A stretch of DNA of 64,000 nucleotides from Agromyces salentinus (GTDB lineage: Bacteria > Actinomycetota > Actinomycetes > Actinomycetales > Microbacteriaceae): NCBI RefSeq assembly GCF_009749395.1, contig NZ_WBIR01000012.1, forward strand, positions 1 through 64,000. The letters run 5' to 3'. A program made the position numbers and the translations under genes. A model generated the notes under the pieces. It ran no database searches, had not been told where the DNA came from, and saw only the letters and a list, made by a program, of their open reading frames with translations. Positions 54,949-63,575 of this stretch are shown piece by piece. Within the stretch, counting starts at the first letter, position 1. Each line of letters opens with the position of its first letter.

Positions 54949-56340
54949 TCAGCCGAGCGGACCCTCCGGAGCCGAGCGGAGCGCGTCACCGAGGGAGTTC
55001 CCGAGCTCGTTGCGGTAGTCGCCCGACAGATCCCACCACATCGCGCCGCCGTAGCCCTCCTGTGCGAGCCACTGCGCCTTCGCGGTGACCGAGGCCGGGT
55101 CGTCGAGGCTCCACCAGTCCCCGGTCGCTGCGTCGTACCGCCACGATGCGCCGACGGCCGGGTCGAAGTAGCCGGTGCCGACCGAACGGATCTCGTAGTA
55201 CGGCTTGGTGCCGATCGACGCCGTGGCGGCCTGCCACGCATCATCGCCGACCGTGACGCCCGTCCAGCCCTGCCCGTAGGCCGCGAGCCCCGCGTTCAGC
55301 TGTTCGGGTGCGGCGCCCGCGTTCAGGTACATCCCCACGGCGCCGTCGAGGCCGAGGCCCCAGTTCTCGGTTCCGTCGGGGTGCAGGTTGCCCTGGTGCC
55401 CGGTCCTGTTCGGAACCCAGCCGCCGTGGAAGTCGTACCCCTGCACGTTGAGGAAGTCGACGGTCGCGAAGAGGCGCGGATCGAGCCATCCGCCCTGTCC
55501 GGCGTTCCAGCCGCCCGCCGGGGCGAACGCGGTGAGCAGGTAGTCCTCATCGACCTCCTCGCCGTACGCATCGAGTTGGGTGCGGAACTCCTCCATGAGG
55601 GCGAGGAAGTTCTCCTTGTCGACGGCGGGGTCGGGGCTCGTGCTCGGCACCTCGCCGCCGGTGACGGGCCACTCCCAGTCGATGTCGATGCCGTCGAAGA
55701 TGCCCGCCGCGACGCCCTTGCCGCCCTGCTTCCCGACGACGGGCAGGTTGCCCTCGAGGTAGAGGTCGATGCAGCTCGCCACGAGCTTCGACCGGCTCTC
55801 CGGGGTCGCGGCGGCGGCGTAGAAGTTGTCGGACCAGGTCCAGCCGCCGAGCGAGATGAGGATCTTCGTGTCGGGGCTCTTCTCCTTGAGCTTGCGCAAC
55901 TGATTGAAGTTGCCCGCGATCCGCTGGTTCTTCGAGTCCTTCTTGCCGTCCACCGAATCGGCGGCGGAGACGAGCCGCAGGTAGTCGTTCTGCGCGTCGC
56001 CCTCGCCCGGGACGTCGGTGATCTCGCAGGTCAGGTTCGACGTGACGTTGCCGAAGGCGTAGTTGATGTGCGTGATGTCCGAGATCGCACCCGTGTTCAG
56101 GAGGTCCTCGACCTGGTAGTCGCGCGTCACGGGGGTGTCGGCCATGAGGTATCCGACCGACCGATAGCCGTTGATCTCCTCAGGGCCGGCCGAGCGGCCG
56201 TGCGCGTGGTGGTCGTGCTTGCCGTGGCCGCCTCCTCGGTGGTCGCCGTGGGCGGCGGCGGGGGAGACGGCGGATGCCGCGACGAGCGCGGTTGCGGCGG
56301 CGGCGATGGCCGCGGCTCTCAGCAGATGGCGTTCAGGCAT
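54949..56340 (-). CDS. Secreted GH18 chitinase
   Basis: 463 aa glycoside hydrolase hydrolysing chitin or related beta-1,4-GlcNAc polymers. Signal peptide at residues 1-30 (AATALVAASAVSPAAA), a His/Gly-rich stretch HGDHRGGGHGKHDHHAHG just after it, then the GH18 barrel: SLGGWTWS at about 150 and the catalytic FDGIDIDWEWP (Glu at about 221). No carbohydrate-binding module. The His-rich N-terminus may bind metal. ATG 56340 has GAGGA 6 bases upstream; ATG 56352 is in frame but weaker. The same region holds a candidate GlcNAc-polymer operon (57.4-63.6 kb), an intriguing but unproven link. Confidence 0.92.
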   Translation of the reverse strand: MPERHLLRAAAIAAAATALVAASAVSPAAAHGDHRGGGHGKHDHHAHGRSAGPEEINGYRSVGYLMADTPVTRDYQVEDLLNTGAISDITHINYAFGNVTSNLTCEITDVPGEGDAQNDYLRLVSAADSVDGKKDSKNQRIAGNFNQLRKLKEKSPDTKILISLGGWTWSDNFYAAAATPESRSKLVASCIDLYLEGNLPVVGKQGGKGVAAGIFDGIDIDWEWPVTGGEVPSTSPDPAVDKENFLALMEEFRTQLDAYGEEVDEDYLLTAFAPAGGWNAGQGGWLDPRLFATVDFLNVQGYDFHGGWVPNRTGHQGNLHPDGTENWGLGLDGAVGMYLNAGAAPEQLNAGLAAYGQGWTGVTVGDDAWQAATASIGTKPYYEIRSVGTGYFDPAVGASWRYDAATGDWWSLDDPASVTAKAQWLAQEGYGGAMWWDLSGDYRNELGNSLGDALRSAPEGPLG

Positions 56341-56589: not shown

Positions 56590-56666
56590 CGCGGGGTGGA
56601 GCAGTTCGGTAGCTCGCTGGGCTCATAACCCAGAGGTCGTAGGTTCAAATCCTGCCCCCGCAACCA
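56590..56666 (+). tRNA. Initiator tRNA-Met (CAT), CCA encoded
   Basis: 77-nt cloverleaf. The acceptor strands CGCGGGG/CCCCGCA leave the first pair C-A unpaired, and the anticodon stem has three consecutive G-C pairs (GGG...CCC), both hallmarks of initiator tRNA. Anticodon CAT at 56624-56626. The 3' CCA is encoded at 56664-56666. It is identical over 76 nt to the copy at 57209. Confidence 0.95.
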
Positions 56667-57208: not shown

Positions 57209-57282
57209 CGCGGGGTGGAGCAGTTCGGTAGCTCGCTGGGCTCATAACCCAGAGGTCGTAGGTTCAAATCCTGCCCCCGCAA
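57209..57282 (+). tRNA. Initiator tRNA-Met (CAT), CCA not encoded
   Basis: Same 74-nt body as the copy at 56590, with the C-A first pair and GGG/CCC anticodon stem. The genome reads CCG after the discriminator A, so the 3' CCA must be added by the CCA enzyme. Confidence 0.95.
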
Positions 57283-57290
57283 CCGAGAGG

Positions 57291-57403: not shown

Positions 57404-59182
57404 TCAGGCGGAGCCTCCCGGCGGGTTCGGCATCGCACTGGTCGTGCGGGCGCCGGCGTGCATCGGGAGCAGCATCGCGAACGTCGTGCCCCGACCCTCG
57501 ACACTGGACACCGTCATGGTGCCGTGGTGAGCGGAGACGATCGCCTTCGTGATGCTGAGACCGAGGCCCACGCCCTGGACGGCCTGCCGGATGGCCGTCG
57601 ACGAACGGAAGAACCGCGTGAACAGGCGCTCGACCTCGCCGGCCGGGATGCCCATTCCGGTGTCGGTGACCGCGATCCGGGCGTAGCCGTCCACCATCTC
57701 GAGCGACACCGAGACGGTTCCGTCCGGCTTCGTGAACTTCAGGGCATTCGAGATCAGGTTGTCGCACGCCTGTGCGAGCCGAGTCGCATCCCCCGGGATC
57801 TCCATGGAATCCAGGGCGTTATCGGCCCGGAGCTCGATGCCGCCGCGCGTCGCCGCCGGACGCGCCGACTCGACGGATGCGAGCACCACGTGCACCAGGT
57901 CCACCTCGCGGATGTCGAGCGGGAAGGTGCCCGACTCCACCTGGGCCGTCAGGAGGAGATCCCCCACGAGGGCGAGGAGGCGGTGCGCGTTCCGTTCCGC
58001 GATGGCGAGGTAGGAGAATTGCTCTGCCGTGAGCGGGTGCTGCTCGTCGTCGCGGATCAGCTCGAGATACCCGAGGACCGAGGTCAGCGGAGTCCGAAGC
58101 TCGTGGGAGATCATGCCGACGAACTCGTCCTTCAGGCGATTCACCTCGTGGAGCCCGGTCACGTCCGTGCCGATGAAGATGTACCCGACGTGATCTCCGG
58201 ACTCGTCCAGCCGAGGCGAGGCCGAGAGCTGCACCGGGATGCGTTCGCCGGCCGCGTCGACGAAGGTCCACTCGGAGTTGTCGCCGTATGCCGCACGGGC
58301 GGCCTCGACGAGGTGCATGAAGCTCTCACGATCGGTGATCGGATCGACGCCGGGCATGAAGTTGCGCGCTCGCTCGCGGAGTTCGTCGCCGGCGAGGAAC
58401 TGGGTCAGGTACCGCTGCTCGACGCCGTCCTCGAATGGAACGCCGAGCATTCGATCCGCGCCCGGCCCGGCCGTGAGAATGAGGCCCGTGCGATCCGTGA
58501 CGATCACGGCCTCCGCCTTGACGGCTTGCCAGATGCTGAGATTGAAGGCCTCGGACGCACGGAGCTGCGCCTGGCTCGACTCGAGTTCCGCCCGTCTCGC
58601 CTCAGCGTCGGCGAGCAGCCCCTCCCGCTCAGCCAGCAGCGCTTCGGCGTTCGCCAGCTGCACCCTGCCCAGGTGCGAGAGCTCGTTGATGATGCCGGCC
58701 GCGACGAGGTACACCAGCGGCGCGAAGAAGCCCCGCATGAGTTGGCCGTCGCCGAGGACCTGATGTCCGGTCAGGAAGGGCAGTTGCAGCGCCACGCACA
58801 CGGCGGCTGCCGAGAGCACGATGTGGGATCGCCCCTCCTCCGAGGCGATCCAGACGAAGGGGAGGATGATGAGCGACCCGAAGATGGATGCGAACCCGCC
58901 CGTGCCGAGCCGGAACAGGCCGATCGCGAGGATCGAGAGCACGGGGATGACGATGGCCCACTCGTGGTCGAACCGGCGCCAGGGGAAGGTGAAGGCGAAG
59001 GCTGTGACGGTGACCAGGATCGCGACCCCCGACCATGCCGCCCACTGGACGGTGATGGCGACGCCTGGTACGACGAGTGTCGTCACGACGGCGAGCACGA
59101 GGCCGATGGCCGTCGGCACCTGCTTGAAGCCCGGCGACAGGGAGTCGCTGGAGAGCCGGGCGAGCCATCCGGGCTGCGTCAC
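57404..59182 (-). CDS. Membrane PAS-domain sensor histidine kinase
   Basis: 592 aa. About six transmembrane helices in residues 23-168, a coiled coil (about 172-212), a PAS domain (about 213-345), HisKA with phosphoacceptor H360 in MISHELRTPL, and HATPase_c with N box DNLISNALKF (474-483), G1 DTGMGIP (507-513), G2 GVGLGLS (537-543). Complete kinase. Last gene of the operon; GTG 59182 overlaps the stop of the 46-aa gene in GTGA. It most likely phosphorylates the receiver-PIG-L protein encoded at the operon head, as no other regulator is present. Confidence 0.93.
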   Translation of the reverse strand: MTQPGWLARLSSDSLSPGFKQVPTAIGLVLAVVTTLVVPGVAITVQWAAWSGVAILVTVTAFAFTFPWRRFDHEWAIVIPVLSILAIGLFRLGTGGFASIFGSLIILPFVWIASEEGRSHIVLSAAAVCVALQLPFLTGHQVLGDGQLMRGFFAPLVYLVAAGIINELSHLGRVQLANAEALLAEREGLLADAEARRAELESSQAQLRASEAFNLSIWQAVKAEAVIVTDRTGLILTAGPGADRMLGVPFEDGVEQRYLTQFLAGDELRERARNFMPGVDPITDRESFMHLVEAARAAYGDNSEWTFVDAAGERIPVQLSASPRLDESGDHVGYIFIGTDVTGLHEVNRLKDEFVGMISHELRTPLTSVLGYLELIRDDEQHPLTAEQFSYLAIAERNAHRLLALVGDLLLTAQVESGTFPLDIREVDLVHVVLASVESARPAATRGGIELRADNALDSMEIPGDATRLAQACDNLISNALKFTKPDGTVSVSLEMVDGYARIAVTDTGMGIPAGEVERLFTRFFRSSTAIRQAVQGVGLGLSITKAIVSAHHGTMTVSSVEGRGTTFAMLLPMHAGARTTSAMPNPPGGSA

Positions 59183-59319
59183 AGGAAGAACACCTGCCGG
59201 ACGACGACGAGGGCGACCACGACGACGATCGCGAGCAATGCCTGGGGGATGAGGCGCCGTTCCGAGCGCCGGTTCTCCTCGATCTCGCGTCGCAGGGTCC
59301 GCTCCCCGAGGTCGGTCAT
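59179..59319 (-). CDS. 46-aa single-TM protein, possible synthase partner
   Basis: Residues 1-25 are charged and helical (MTDLGERTLRREIEENRRSE), residues 27-45 form one hydrophobic helix, ending RQVFFL. Both ends overlap neighbours by 4 bases (ATGA with the GT2 gene, GTGA with the kinase gene), so it must be translated. Its place right after a processive GT2 gene is like small membrane subunits PgaD/IcaD next to PgaC/IcaA, although it is shorter (IcaD is about 100 aa) with one helix. Function otherwise unknown. Confidence 0.78.
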   Translation of the reverse strand: MTDLGERTLRREIEENRRSERRLIPQALLAIVVVVALVVVRQVFFL

Positions 59320-60809
59320 CCCAGCACCCTGCCCGTCTTCTCGGTCTTGTCCCACACCATGGCGGCGCCGCGCGCCTCCTTGACGTACGAGTCGAAGGTG
59401 ATCGCACACAGGATCGGCCCGTAGCCGATCAGATAGACGAGCAGGGGGCACAGCCAGCGACCCGGTCGAGTCGAGTCGAGGTGCTTGGCACCCCAGGCGG
59501 CGAGCATCGAGAGGGAGACCCAGCTGTAGACGAAGAGCGTCCAGGCGACGAGTGCCTCGTCCGTGAACTGCAGGCCGAAGAGCGCCGGGATGCGCTCTTC
59601 GATGAGCCCGGGGAAGAACGCCGTGATCATGACGACGATCGAGATCGCGCCGGGGAAGAGGATCGCCTCACGCCAGCTCGAGCGGCCCGTGGCCGGATCG
59701 AGTTGCGCCGCGAGCAGCATCGTGTAGACGTACGTGCACGCGGCCACGATCCAGAGCGCGCGGAACACCGTGAGCGCCAATTGCGAGTCGAGGAGGAAGA
59801 GCCCGATGAGGCCGATCGAGGACGCGATCATCAAGCAGGGCAGCAGGAAGACGCTGAACCAGAACAGGCCGAACGAGATCGACCCGAGCCGGTGCTCACG
59901 GGACGGGCGGAACCAGACCTTCCGGTATCGCGCGGTGAGCTGCACGTTGCCCCGTGCCCAGCGCAGGCGTTGCTTCCAGAGTGCGCCGATCGCGTGCGGC
60001 TCCTCAGCGAGGACCACTGCATAGGGCTCGAAGACGACCCGGCGTCCGCGGAGCTGGGTCTCGAAGGTGGTGACCGTGTCCTCCGCCAGGGAGCTCGTGT
60101 CGATCCTCCCGCCGATGTCCTCGAGGTTCGTCCTCGAATGCAGCTGGGCGCCGCCTGCCAGGCAGGCGAGCGCGCCCAGCACGTTCTGGGCGCGACGACT
60201 GCCGATCTGCGAGAGCACGTACTCGAAGGCGACGAACCTGCTGAGGTAGTTCTTGTCGCGACTTCCCTCCCGGATGTACGCCGTGACGGCGCCGACCTTC
60301 TCGTCGGCGAGGTGTCGCGTCATCCGCCGCAGGGAATCGGGCAGGTAGATGACGTCGGCGTCCATGATGAGCAGCGCATGCATCCAGTCGTCCTGCAGGA
60401 CATGGCGGATGCCGTGGTTCAGCGTGTGCGCCTTGCCTTCGCCGCCGACCTCGCGACGGAGATGGAAGACGGCGCCCGGATACTCACGCGCCTTCGCCTG
60501 GACGACCTGGGGCGTGTCATCCGTCGATGCGTCGTCGACCACGTACACGCGGAGGGCGCCCTCGGGGTACTCGAGCGCCATGAGGCGGTCGATGGAGACG
60601 CCGATGACGGCCCCCTCGTTCCACGCCGGCACGATGATGGCCACGTTCGGAAGGTATGGCGCTGCCCTGCCGTAGTGGTTGCGCACGGCGTGCACGGGGA
60701 TGAGGAGGAACTGGTACGCCATCGCGAGCACGGGGATGGCCCCGAACGCGACGAAGACCGCGAGGACCGTCACCATGACGCCGTACAGGACGCCGTCCCA
60801 CTCGATCAC
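59316..60809 (-). CDS. Processive family-2 glycosyltransferase (polysaccharide synthase)
   Basis: 497 aa membrane synthase of the PgaC/IcaA/hyaluronan-synthase type. One N-terminal helix (about 8-38), cytosolic GT2 domain with nucleotide-sugar Asp in VVDDASTDDT (90-99), DxD in IMDAD (148-152), base Asp in LAEDTVTTFE (241-250) and QRLRWARG (280-287), then about five C-terminal helices (310-475) forming a conduit. The QxxRW motif indicates processive beta-linked polymer synthesis. The sugar is not identifiable; GlcNAc is favoured by the co-encoded PIG-L deacetylase. GTG 60809 overlaps the PHP stop in GTGA. Confidence 0.92.
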   Translation of the reverse strand: MIEWDGVLYGVMVTVLAVFVAFGAIPVLAMAYQFLLIPVHAVRNHYGRAAPYLPNVAIIVPAWNEGAVIGVSIDRLMALEYPEGALRVYVVDDASTDDTPQVVQAKAREYPGAVFHLRREVGGEGKAHTLNHGIRHVLQDDWMHALLIMDADVIYLPDSLRRMTRHLADEKVGAVTAYIREGSRDKNYLSRFVAFEYVLSQIGSRRAQNVLGALACLAGGAQLHSRTNLEDIGGRIDTSSLAEDTVTTFETQLRGRRVVFEPYAVVLAEEPHAIGALWKQRLRWARGNVQLTARYRKVWFRPSREHRLGSISFGLFWFSVFLLPCLMIASSIGLIGLFLLDSQLALTVFRALWIVAACTYVYTMLLAAQLDPATGRSSWREAILFPGAISIVVMITAFFPGLIEERIPALFGLQFTDEALVAWTLFVYSWVSLSMLAAWGAKHLDSTRPGRWLCPLLVYLIGYGPILCAITFDSYVKEARGAAMVWDKTEKTGRVLG

Positions 60810-61549
60810 GGCGCGCTGCCCTGCGCCGCGGCATCGAGGATGCCGACCACGTCGCGGTAGCGGCCGACGTGGGTCGACACGTGCGCGTCGGTCGAGGCGA
60901 CGAGCGTCGCGCCGGCCGCACGAACCGCACGGATCACCCGCGCCCCGGGGCACGCCCACTTCTCGTTGACCTCGACGAACGTGCGAGTCTCCGCGGCGGC
61001 ATCCGCCCAGCCTTCCAGGAGCGCGTCGGAGATCGAGTCCTCCGAGAGTCCGATCTTCGGCAGGATCGAGAACGGATGCGCGAGCTGTCCGCCCGGATGC
61101 CGCCGCATGGCGCCCACCATCGCCGTCACGAGGATCTCGACGGCCTCCGCCTCGCCGAGGCCGCCCGTGAGTTCGCTCCGCGTGCGCTCCGGCGTCCACG
61201 GCCCGTCGGGCCCGGGGAACTGGTGATCGGCGATGACGATGCCCTCGATGCCGCCCGGGCCGATCACCAGGTCGGGCGGGAGATCCAGGCGCCCGGTGGC
61301 GTCGAGGATCTTCGCCTCGACCCCGGTGTGCACGACCAGCCCGTCGGGAACGGGTTCGGCAGCGACGGCGGCGAGGAAGTCCGGGACCCAGGTCGTACTC
61401 ACACGGACGTGATCGATGAGGCGCAGGTGGGTGAGTCCGCGTTGCTGCGCAGCCCGGATGTTCGCGCCGATCGTGCTCTCCGCGTCGTCGGAGAATTGCG
61501 AGTGCACGTGCCAGTCGCCGCTCAGCTCGGGGTGTCGTCCATCGGTCAT
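60806..61549 (-). CDS. PHP-domain phosphoesterase of the operon
   Basis: 247 aa, histidinol-phosphatase-like PHP fold. Metal ligands seen: H14 and H16 in DWHVHSQFSDD, D46-H47 in LIDHVR, E78 in GVEAK, H109 in IADHQFPG, H158 in LAHPF, and D221/H223 in STDAHVS. All positions are occupied, so it should be active on a phosphomonoester, perhaps a sugar phosphate. Distinct from the TrpH-like PHP protein at 33374. ATG 61549 overlaps the ATP-grasp stop by ATGA. Confidence 0.87.
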   Translation of the reverse strand: MTDGRHPELSGDWHVHSQFSDDAESTIGANIRAAQQRGLTHLRLIDHVRVSTTWVPDFLAAVAAEPVPDGLVVHTGVEAKILDATGRLDLPPDLVIGPGGIEGIVIADHQFPGPDGPWTPERTRSELTGGLGEAEAVEILVTAMVGAMRRHPGGQLAHPFSILPKIGLSEDSISDALLEGWADAAAETRTFVEVNEKWACPGARVIRAVRAAGATLVASTDAHVSTHVGRYRDVVGILDAAAQGSAP

Positions 61550-62511
61550 GGTGAGACGATCACCTCGTCCACCGGCAGGAAGAGGTCCTCGAGGAAGCGC
61601 ACGTTGGCGATCTCCTCGAAGGGCACGTGACGCGGGATCTCCCGGCCGAGCGCGACATCGACGGCGAGGGAGGGCATGTCCACTCCCGCGGCGATCGTGA
61701 GCGGCATCGCCCCCGAGAACCGCGGGTTGATCTCGAGCAGGGCCGGAACGCCGTCGGCGCTGTAGCGAAGCTGCACGTTCGCGACACCGGTGATGCCCGC
61801 GGCGCGCGCGCACGCGGCCGCGGTCTCCTCGAGCTCAGCACGGTGCACGGTCCGCCCCGCAACCGCGACACCCGAATCGACCCGGGCACGCAGGCGCGGC
61901 ACGGCCGCGACGACGTGCCCGTCGGCCGCGACGATGACGTCCACCGAGAACTCCTCGCCGGGCAGATGCTCCTGGATGATCTGCGCCTCGTCCGGCGGAC
62001 TCGCCTCGAGCTCCGGGCGACTGGACACGAGGCGGACCCCGCGGGAGCCGGCGCCGCTTCGCGGCTTCACGATGACGGGGAATGCCCAGTCGTGCGCCTG
62101 TCCCGCCTCCGTCAGCAGTTCGGTGTGCGGGACGCGGACGTGGGGCGCGCAGGCCTGTACGAGCCGCCACTTGTCGAGCGCGGTATCGAGCGCGGCCTGC
62201 GACGGGGCCGCGAGCACCGCTCCGAGCTCCGCTCTCCGGGCTGCCAGGGGCGGCAGCTCGGCATCGACCGTCGAGACGACGACGTCGATCTCGTCCCGGT
62301 CGCAGAGCGCGATGACGGACTCGACGAACTCGGGAGCGTTCCCGGCGGGCAGGATGCGCCGTCGCATCGATGGGACGAGGTAGAGCCCGCTCGCCCAGCC
62401 GTCCATGTCGGCTGCGTAGACGACGAGATCCTCGCGACGCAGCAGCGAACGGATGACGGCCACGCCGGCCGGACCGCCCGCGCCGGTGACGAGGACCGTT
62501 CGCCTGCTCAC
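61546..62511 (-). CDS. ATP-grasp ligase (CarB-like)
   Basis: 321 aa. N-terminal pre-ATP-grasp Rossmann part (VLVTGAGGPAGVAVI, residues 7-20), then ATP-grasp: ATP-binding Lys149 in FPVIVKP, loop RSGAGSRGVRL, E181 in IIQEHLPGEEF, and Mg-binding E260/N262 in LLEINPRFSGAMPL. Such enzymes join a carboxylate to an amine or thiol through an acyl-phosphate; an amino-sugar amine freed by the deacetylase is a possible acceptor (inference). GTG 62511 with GAGGA upstream overlaps the upstream stop by GTGA. Confidence 0.88.
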   Translation of the reverse strand: MSRRTVLVTGAGGPAGVAVIRSLLRREDLVVYAADMDGWASGLYLVPSMRRRILPAGNAPEFVESVIALCDRDEIDVVVSTVDAELPPLAARRAELGAVLAAPSQAALDTALDKWRLVQACAPHVRVPHTELLTEAGQAHDWAFPVIVKPRSGAGSRGVRLVSSRPELEASPPDEAQIIQEHLPGEEFSVDVIVAADGHVVAAVPRLRARVDSGVAVAGRTVHRAELEETAAACARAAGITGVANVQLRYSADGVPALLEINPRFSGAMPLTIAAGVDMPSLAVDVALGREIPRHVPFEEIANVRFLEDLFLPVDEVIVSP

Positions 62512-63575
62512 AGTTCCTCGCCCACCTGGGTGATCCTGCTCCGCGAACGCGTGCCATCGAGGGGCGCGCCGATGCCCGCGCTGTCGCGCACGATCTCGAG
62601 CGGTTCGCAGTGCTCGCCCCTGCCGAATCGCGACCAGTAGCGGGTGCCCGCGAGCACGAAGTCCGGTTCCAGGTAGCTGCGGATGCCGCTCTGCGACGCG
62701 AAGCACCGCAGCAGGGCGAGCTTCGTCTCGAGTTGTCCGTCGATCGGCACGAAGCGGCTCGGGCGGAACTCCACGGTCGACGACGGGCTCTGGTAGCACG
62801 CGACCGTCGGAACGGAACGCGTGGCGACCAGCGATGCCTCATGCACCGCCCGGTGGTCCTGGTGGCGGTCGTTCCGGCTGTGCGTGTAGATGATCGAGGG
62901 CTTCACCTCGGCGACGACGCGTTCGATGATCGCGACCGTCGGGTCTGCATTCGGGATGCGAGTGTCCTCCAGGTCCTCGAGGAAGAGCCGTGCGCCGACG
63001 AGCTCGGCCGCCGCGAGCGACTCGTCCTGCCGGTCGTCGGCCTCGCCGCCCCTGGCGCCGCGGGAGAGCGTGAGGATCACGATCGGGTCCCCGACTGCGG
63101 CATGTGCGGCCAGGATTCCGCCGACACCGAGCTCGACGTCGTCGGGGTGGGCTCCGATGGCGAGGATCGTGCGCTGCCGGCGCTGCGCTGCGGCTGCCCG
63201 AGCACGGGCTCCGAGGCGCGTGACGGCGGCGACGAGGTCGGCCGACGACACCGGCTTGGTCAGGAACTCGTCGGCACGATCGCGCAGTGCACGGACGGCG
63301 TAGTCGACCGATGCGTGCGCGGTCATGACGATGACCGGCAGGTCGGGGTCGCGACGATGGGTCTCCTCGAGGATGTCGAGGCCGCTCGACCCGGGAAGCT
63401 CGACATCCGTGATCACGACGTCGGGGGCGAATTCGGCGACGACCTCGGCGACGCCGTCCGCGCTGGCCAGCACGAGGACCTGGCACGCCGCCCGTTTCTC
63501 GAGCACGGTGCGCGTGTAGAGCGCGACGTCGGCGTCATCCTCGATGACGAGCACGCGGAGGGCACCCTCGAGCAC
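62508..63575 (-). CDS. Response regulator fused to a PIG-L family deacetylase
   Basis: 355 aa. Receiver domain 1-125: acidic pocket E12-D13-D14, phosphoacceptor D57 in VVITDVELPG, T85 in VIVMTAH, K107 in FLTKP. PIG-L/LmbE domain about 135-350: AHPDDVELGVGG (142-153) with His143 and Asp145-Asp146, and NDRHQDHRAVH (235-245) supplying the remaining Zn ligand; THSRNDRHQDH is the family signature. There is no DNA-binding domain, so the output is enzymatic, probably N-deacetylation of an amino sugar. GTG 63575 is the operon head; TAGAGT at 63599-63604 (minus strand) is a probable -10 with a leader of about 20 nt. Confidence 0.92.
   Translation of the reverse strand: MLEGALRVLVIEDDADVALYTRTVLEKRAACQVLVLASADGVAEVVAEFAPDVVITDVELPGSSGLDILEETHRRDPDLPVIVMTAHASVDYAVRALRDRADEFLTKPVSSADLVAAVTRLGARARAAAAQRRQRTILAIGAHPDDVELGVGGILAAHAAVGDPIVILTLSRGARGGEADDRQDESLAAAELVGARLFLEDLEDTRIPNADPTVAIIERVVAEVKPSIIYTHSRNDRHQDHRAVHEASLVATRSVPTVACYQSPSSTVEFRPSRFVPIDGQLETKLALLRCFASQSGIRSYLEPDFVLAGTRYWSRFGRGEHCEPLEIVRDSAGIGAPLDGTRSRSRITQVGEEL

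Follow-up and report, generated by a model that had tools for sequence, protein, structure and literature searches.

A conserved six-gene set in Agromyces salentinus that may make and export an amino-sugar polymer under two-component control

Introduction

What is made by an operon in which a two-component receiver is fused to a PIG-L-type deacetylase and encoded beside a membrane family 2 glycosyltransferase (GT2)? The question is raised by six minus-strand genes of Agromyces salentinus (Microbacteriaceae), which lie in bases 1-64,000 (the window, that is, the whole stretch analysed) of the 82,393-base contig NZ_WBIR01000012.1. An earlier note, made from this sequence alone, had proposed a signal-controlled exopolysaccharide or glycolipid system. 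The reading that we prefer, with a probability of roughly 0.6, is that the operon makes an amino-sugar polymer and exports it by a synthase-dependent route, and that two-component phosphorylation directly switches a cytoplasmic deacetylase. We infer the polymer, its substrate, the order of steps and the switching from gene order, conservation, co-occurrence, domains, residues and predicted folds. In order of translation the genes are as follows.

62508..63575, minus strand: receiver-PIG-L protein, 355 aa, GTG start, first gene of the operon
61546..62511, minus strand: ATP-grasp ligase, 321 aa
60806..61549, minus strand: PHP-family metal hydrolase, probable phosphatase, 247 aa
59316..60809, minus strand: membrane GT2 glycosyltransferase, 497 aa
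59179..59319, minus strand: small protein with one predicted membrane segment, 46 aa
57404..59182, minus strand: membrane PAS histidine kinase, 592 aa

Operon structure

All five junctions are 4-nucleotide (nt) overlaps (in order GTGA, ATGA, GTGA, ATGA and GTGA); open reading frames and junction letters confirm the earlier note on the place and strand of the genes and on these overlaps. Its domain identities also hold, with Pfam matches above the curated cut-offs for all products except the 46-aa protein, which has no match. A possible 4-nt overlap start is found at 4/28 other same-strand neighbour pairs of the window, where genes were called with simple scripts and not with a standard annotator. 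Against this background five successive overlaps are improbable by chance and point to an operon. The overlaps recur in relatives: among neighbours no more than 400 nt apart, they are present at 32/33 junctions of GT2 with small protein, 8/8 of small protein with kinase, 39/47 of ATP-grasp with PHP, 33/43 of PHP with GT2 and 25/55 of receiver-PIG-L with ATP-grasp. Together they indicate an operon with probable translational coupling. The claim that the six proteins are made as a unit is thus upheld as far as the operon and likely coupling are concerned, although overlaps fall short of proof. Chance association of the six genes was rejected on the window background, the recurring overlaps and the co-occurrence in relatives described below.

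Distribution of the gene set

Within the family, full-length receiver-PIG-L is encoded in 25/150 genomes, including that of the window; some of these genomes are incomplete drafts, and the 24 other loci (L004-L027) were refetched with flanks. ATP-grasp and PHP genes lie directly downstream in 14 of the 25, and in 12 of these 14 operons (own included) the GT2 and small protein come next. In L044 and L047 the small protein directly follows PHP, and the GT2 is elsewhere in the genome. A profile search of the 150 genomes (those listed keep their handles, and those lacking a match are listed only in part) finds the GT2 in exactly those 14, with no other genome reaching E 1e-80. One of the genomes (G025) has a second GT2 copy elsewhere (L161), beside a glutamine amidotransferase gene, and the off-operon GT2 genes L159:7116-8609 and L160:7505-9001 adjoin genes for a luciferase-like monooxygenase and an FMN reductase. 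The neighbours of the GT2 genes at L159-L161 gave no pathway hint.

Beyond the family, a class sample has GT2 matches in 7/296 genomes at 1e-40, own included. At four loci (L065-L068) the GT2 is 53-72% identical and PIG-L, ATP-grasp and PHP are adjacent, while at L069 and L070 identity is 36-38% and 31-33% in two comparisons and none of these three genes is adjacent; the latter matches are taken as paralogues. A phylum sample yields the GT2 in 3/396 genomes at 1e-100, namely that of the window and two more, each of which carries the full set. Named records were scanned with the receiver-PIG-L family, which is therefore present in the resulting loci by design; the best 80 of 573 confirmed stretches were taken, and the best 57 (L075-L131) examined. 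Among these best 57 of 573, the fetched stretch carries ATP-grasp (>150 bits) in 45 loci and GT2 (>400 bits) in 42. Their record titles name Microbacterium, Leucobacter, Cellulomonas and Blastococcus, as well as metagenome-assembled genomes (MAGs) of Frankiaceae, Solirubrobacterales, Thermoleophilia and Ilumatobacteraceae; 15 of the records are Gram-negative. Three loci are duplicates (L075 = L043, L101 = L056, L126 = L067), and L131 and L162 have an identical gene set.

The named relatives span Actinomycetes, Thermoleophilia, Acidimicrobiia, Proteobacteria and one Rhodothermales MAG. The Gram-negative records whose titles do not call them MAGs come from two Legionella species, Reyranella aquatilis and Rhodospirillales bacterium URHD0017; no GT2 or ATP-grasp was found in the R. 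aquatilis stretch. Gene order and strand vary among the Gram-negative loci, L115 for example having, in this order, GT2, a tetratricopeptide repeat (TPR) protein, ATP-grasp and receiver-PIG-L. At L118 (11077-13292) the GT2 is on the strand opposite receiver-PIG-L, ATP-grasp and PHP, and its end overlaps the PHP end.

The co-occurrence search that the earlier note had called for thus finds the grouping of receiver-PIG-L, ATP-grasp, PHP and GT2 recurring in the family, class and phylum samples. Two outcomes had been named beforehand as refuting the proposal: an arrangement confined to close relatives, and GT2 and PIG-L genes always apart. Instead, the arrangement is conserved far past close relatives, in the class and phylum samples and in named loci including Gram-negatives, and GT2 and PIG-L are found together: the GT2 is present in exactly the 14 family genomes with the ATP-grasp/PHP arrangement, 12 times in the operon itself, and the pair recurs at wider loci. 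Judged by sequence comparison, the six-gene set is an old, conserved unit.

Two further candidates were rejected. For spread on plasmids, a tblastn search of 72,556 plasmid records with the GT2 gave nothing at E 1e-60, and for anti-phage defence PADLOC gave three kinase-region matches and one receiver-region match only, the 46-aa protein lying outside that scan.

The glycosyltransferase and a route of export

The GT2 (Pfam Glyco_tranf_2_3, 115.7 bits) carries the QxxRW motif at Q280-W284 and a C-terminal WxKTxKxG that is invariant in the alignments, with hydropathy peaks at residues 11-29 and inside 322-471. Its predicted model (predicted local distance difference test score, pLDDT, 91.8) has the mannosyltransferase PcManGT as best fold match, followed by hyaluronan, cellulose (BcsA) and chitin synthases. 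It is therefore predicted to be a membrane-embedded GT2 with a processive-synthase fold, although PcManGT fits better. The 46-aa protein ends in one predicted membrane segment (residues 28-46, hydropathy 2.87); considered as a possible PgaD/IcaD-like subunit, it has no Pfam or NCBIfam match. Its alignment comprises 17 homologues or positional counterparts. A one-segment small protein also follows the GT2 in L111, L116, L122, L129 and L131.

A TPR/beta-barrel protein is added in 9/15 Gram-negative loci by profile match. The TPR is shown by Pfam in five proteins and the barrel by one predicted model, for which Foldseek ranks the cellulose exporter BcsC first and also matches PelBC. Gram-negative members thus appear from modelling to encode a TPR-containing beta-barrel exporter, and the resemblance to polysaccharide exporters favours an exported polymer. 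Of the two products that the earlier note had left side by side, the exopolysaccharide is strengthened and the glycolipid becomes less favoured.

A Nod-factor-like oligosaccharide or glycolipid could still be built if the GT2 made a short chain or lipid-linked sugar at the cytoplasmic face, PIG-L deacetylated its end and the ATP-grasp enzyme N-acylated it. NodC, NodB and NodA set a precedent for cytoplasmic deacetylation followed by N-acylation, the NodC model (TIGR04242) gives the GT2 77.6 bits, and PcManGT as best fold match agrees with such a product. However, the NodC cut-off of 550 bits is missed, no NodA or polysaccharide-deacetylase domain is matched in the operon, and the Gram-negative TPR/barrel protein resembles a polymer exit. 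We consider a Nod-like product unlikely.

The receiver-PIG-L protein and its kinase

The receiver of the receiver-PIG-L protein occupies residues 8-118 (Response_reg, 91.6 bits) and the PIG-L domain residues 138-250 (82 bits). The receiver residues D13, D14, D57, T85 and K107 (acidic pocket, phospho-acceptor Asp, Thr and Lys) are complete, as are the nine PIG-L residues checked (H143, D145, D146, E148, R182, E185, H238, D240 and H241). A receiver pocket fused to an intact enzyme site is what a response regulator with enzymatic output has. The kinase matches PAS_9/PAS_4, HisKA and HATPase_c, with hydrophobic segments inside residues 25-165 by hydropathy. No Pfam DNA-binding domain was matched in the operon proteins. 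A direct switch from kinase to deacetylase would agree with three features: the two domains are fused, the receiver residues are intact, and the kinase is encoded in the same operon. Being placed behind an N-terminal receiver, the PIG-L domain should be cytoplasmic and so would act before export. In 10/12 other family operons with ATP-grasp, PHP and kinase, one or two stand-alone receivers precede the kinase; the window operon has none.

An alternative is that receiver-PIG-L is primarily a signalling protein loosely tied to the glycan genes, its PIG-L domain perhaps a non-catalytic output. In 11 of the 25 family genomes with the fusion, ATP-grasp, PHP and GT2 are not adjacent; nine of these have a kinase, most have stand-alone receivers, and active-site residues are altered in nine of the 11. 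In a survey of 84 receiver-PIG-L rows (81 distinct), by contrast, 63/63 rows whose locus has ATP-grasp or GT2 keep all nine PIG-L residues, and some relatives drop the receiver yet keep PIG-L with GT2, so that a purely signalling role seems quite unlikely. Among rows with neither ATP-grasp nor GT2 the residues are altered in 14/21, and the tracking of active-site decay with loss of the biosynthetic genes is suggestive as a pattern only.

Two loci stand out. The receiver-PIG-L of L063 (5648-6700) has both receiver and some PIG-L residues altered, and its stretch has no kinase. At L056 (4006-13493) three stand-alone receivers and four kinases, the kinases all from the same family, come after receiver-PIG-L, and the stretch lacks ATP-grasp, PHP and GT2.

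Several observations weigh against an exported polymer under a universal phosphorylation switch. The receiver is degenerate in 11 of the 84 rows, eight of which keep an intact PIG-L together with ATP-grasp or GT2 (two more have an intact PIG-L and neither gene, and the last is L063, altered in both domains). At L068 a PIG-L protein without receiver stands alongside ATP-grasp, PHP, GT2 and a 44-aa protein, and no kinase is seen in the fetched stretch of L046, an operon from within the family. A sign test on the tree, of active-site change against absence of the biosynthetic genes, is not significant (absence 8 changes, decay 4). On the export side, BcsC and PelB are absent from the 50 VIA-align rows for the TPR/barrel model. 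Since the receiver can be lost or degenerate while enzyme and biosynthetic genes are kept, the PIG-L enzyme and these genes appear to be the core, to which the receiver would add a layer of control.

The ATP-grasp enzyme and the phosphatase

The ATP-grasp protein matches ATPgrasp_Ter (113 bits) and ATP-grasp_3 (66.1 bits), has 2pn1 as its best solved chain, and keeps K149, E260 and N262 invariant in a 20-row alignment that includes the window. The ATP-grasp superfamily includes carboxylate-amine ligases, which prompts the proposal that a new acyl group is put on the freed amine; that this ligase acts on freed amines is a guess. The PHP protein scores 29.3 bits against a cut-off of 26.4, and its H14, H16, D21, H47, E78, H109, H158, D221 and H223, invariant in 15 rows (window included), are a probable metal site.

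The phosphatase slot can be filled otherwise. A histidine phosphatase (His_Phos_1) occurs in seven loci without PHP in the stretch, confirmed by Pfam in L112, L121 and L122 and linked by blastp in L113, L123, L124 and L127. A more distant cousin cluster in Geodermatophilus (L132:2939-9699) encodes a GT2-like protein, ATP-grasp, UDP-N-acetylglucosamine 2-epimerase, a HAD phosphatase and PIG-L; Pfam was run on L132 only, and L133, L134, L139 and L142 are tied to it by blastp. The phosphatase swaps, with the 2-epimerase and HAD phosphatase of the cousin, suggest that the substrate is an N-acetylhexosamine and that a phosphate has to be removed. Shorter clusters of PIG-L, ATP-grasp and a GT2 relative, with no receiver or PHP match, are seen at L074:6589-9775, L144:8755-11955 and L151:8731-11816, two of them in Arthrobacter, and are possibly a cousin system.

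The same reaction types would suit a soluble small-molecule pathway on the mycothiol/bacillithiol plan, with glycosyl transfer, dephosphorylation, PIG-L deacetylation and ATP-dependent amide ligation, and of the deacetylase models shown it is BshB1 (TIGR04001) that the PIG-L part matches, at 79.7 bits. The BshB1 cut-off of 182.5 is missed, however, the operon has in place of a soluble GT4 a membrane GT2 accompanied by a small membrane protein, and the Gram-negative loci have a TPR/barrel protein. We regard this pathway as very unlikely.

Proposed pathway and its meaning

For the amino-sugar polymer that we prefer, the membrane GT2 and its probable partner, the small membrane protein, would polymerise a nucleotide-activated N-acetylhexosamine (probably UDP-N-acetylglucosamine) and pass the chain across the membrane; in Gram-negatives the TPR/beta-barrel protein would be the outer-membrane exit. 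PIG-L would strip N-acetyl groups in the cytoplasm, and so from the precursor or from chain exposed there, and the ATP-grasp enzyme would probably make an amide on the freed amine. The phosphatase (PHP here, a histidine phosphatase or the cousin cluster's HAD enzyme elsewhere) would take phosphate off a sugar or acyl donor. The PAS kinase would phosphorylate the receiver, the signal setting deacetylase activity directly and not via transcription. A wider proposal is more tentative, with the odds against it: a glycan export system of several phyla in which a phosphorelay acting on a cytoplasmic deacetylase sets the N-substitution of the polymer, from acetyl to acyl or aminoacyl via ATP-grasp, before export.

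If true, exopolysaccharide would here be controlled in a way that differs from both cyclic di-GMP (c-di-GMP) and transcription, and PIG-L enzymes would gain a role as direct output of two-component signalling. The gene set would explain a surface or secreted glycan from soil actinobacteria to Proteobacteria. That N-acetyl is replaced by a different N-acyl group before export would be a new chemical hypothesis, open to direct testing with six genes in strains that are harmless and tractable.

The earlier note knew of no described system of this composition, and in searches of the openly licensed PubMed Central (PMC) literature none of the papers listed describes one, nor receiver-PIG-L as a response-regulator output. 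The title of one paper (PMC12613277) reports an effect of a PIG-L gene on biofilm formation in Clostridioides difficile, and another has passages on clusters other than the six-gene set (PMC13390465). The component families are known; what appears undescribed is their combination, the use of receiver-PIG-L as an output and how widely the set is conserved.

Downstream of the operon, past two tRNA genes, the window has a GH18 (chitinase-type) gene (54949-56340, minus strand). Both tRNA genes are tRNA-Met (CAT) on the plus strand (56590-56666 and 57209-57284), about 0.6 kb apart.

Comparison with known systems

Membership in the poly-N-acetylglucosamine (PNAG), NodC or BshB1 families was rejected, as the curated cut-offs are missed. 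The PNAG plan comprises a GT2 synthase, a small membrane partner, deacetylation and, in Gram-negatives, a TPR/beta-barrel exporter, and the operon and its relatives resemble PgaABCD/IcaADBC in having a GT2, a deacetylase and, in Gram-negative loci, a TPR/barrel protein, with the small membrane protein as a putative partner. The best NCBIfam match of the GT2 is PgaC_IcaA (TIGR03937), at 123.5 bits against a cut-off of 422.3 (121.5 and 134.6 bits for two Gram-negative relatives). For the exporter, five of six scanned proteins reach 30.4 to 58.3 bits with the PgaA model (TIGR03939), whose cut-off is 366.65; for the sixth no match is listed. The PNAG deacetylases PgaB and IcaB are extracytoplasmic CE4 enzymes, whereas Pfam (E 0.01) finds no CE4-type polysaccharide deacetylase domain in the six proteins; the operon instead has PIG-L on a receiver, and adds ATP-grasp and a phosphatase. 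The parallel with PNAG drawn in the earlier note therefore survives as a plan of synthase, small protein and deacetylase, and is otherwise loose, the GT2 falling far under the PgaC/IcaA cut-off and PIG-L being expected in the cytoplasm.

The Bcs and Pel systems are alike in predicted folds, of the GT2 to BcsA and of the exporter to BcsC and PelBC. The operon differs from them in having a kinase and receiver in place of c-di-GMP (none of the six proteins has a Pfam match to PilZ or another c-di-GMP domain), and in its deacetylase, ligase and phosphatase. NodABC, in which a GT2 synthase is joined by cytoplasmic deacetylation and N-acylation, shares that logic with the operon, which lacks a NodA- or NodB-type domain match and misses the NodC cut-off. 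Mycothiol and bacillithiol synthesis proceeds by glycosyl transfer, PIG-L-family deacetylation and ATP-dependent ligation with GT4 and MshC/BshC enzymes; the reaction types are alike, and the operon differs by its membrane GT2 and ATP-grasp. Response regulators with enzymatic output include the CheB, GGDEF and EAL types, with which the operon shares a receiver fused to an enzyme and a histidine kinase, and from which it differs in having PIG-L as the output.

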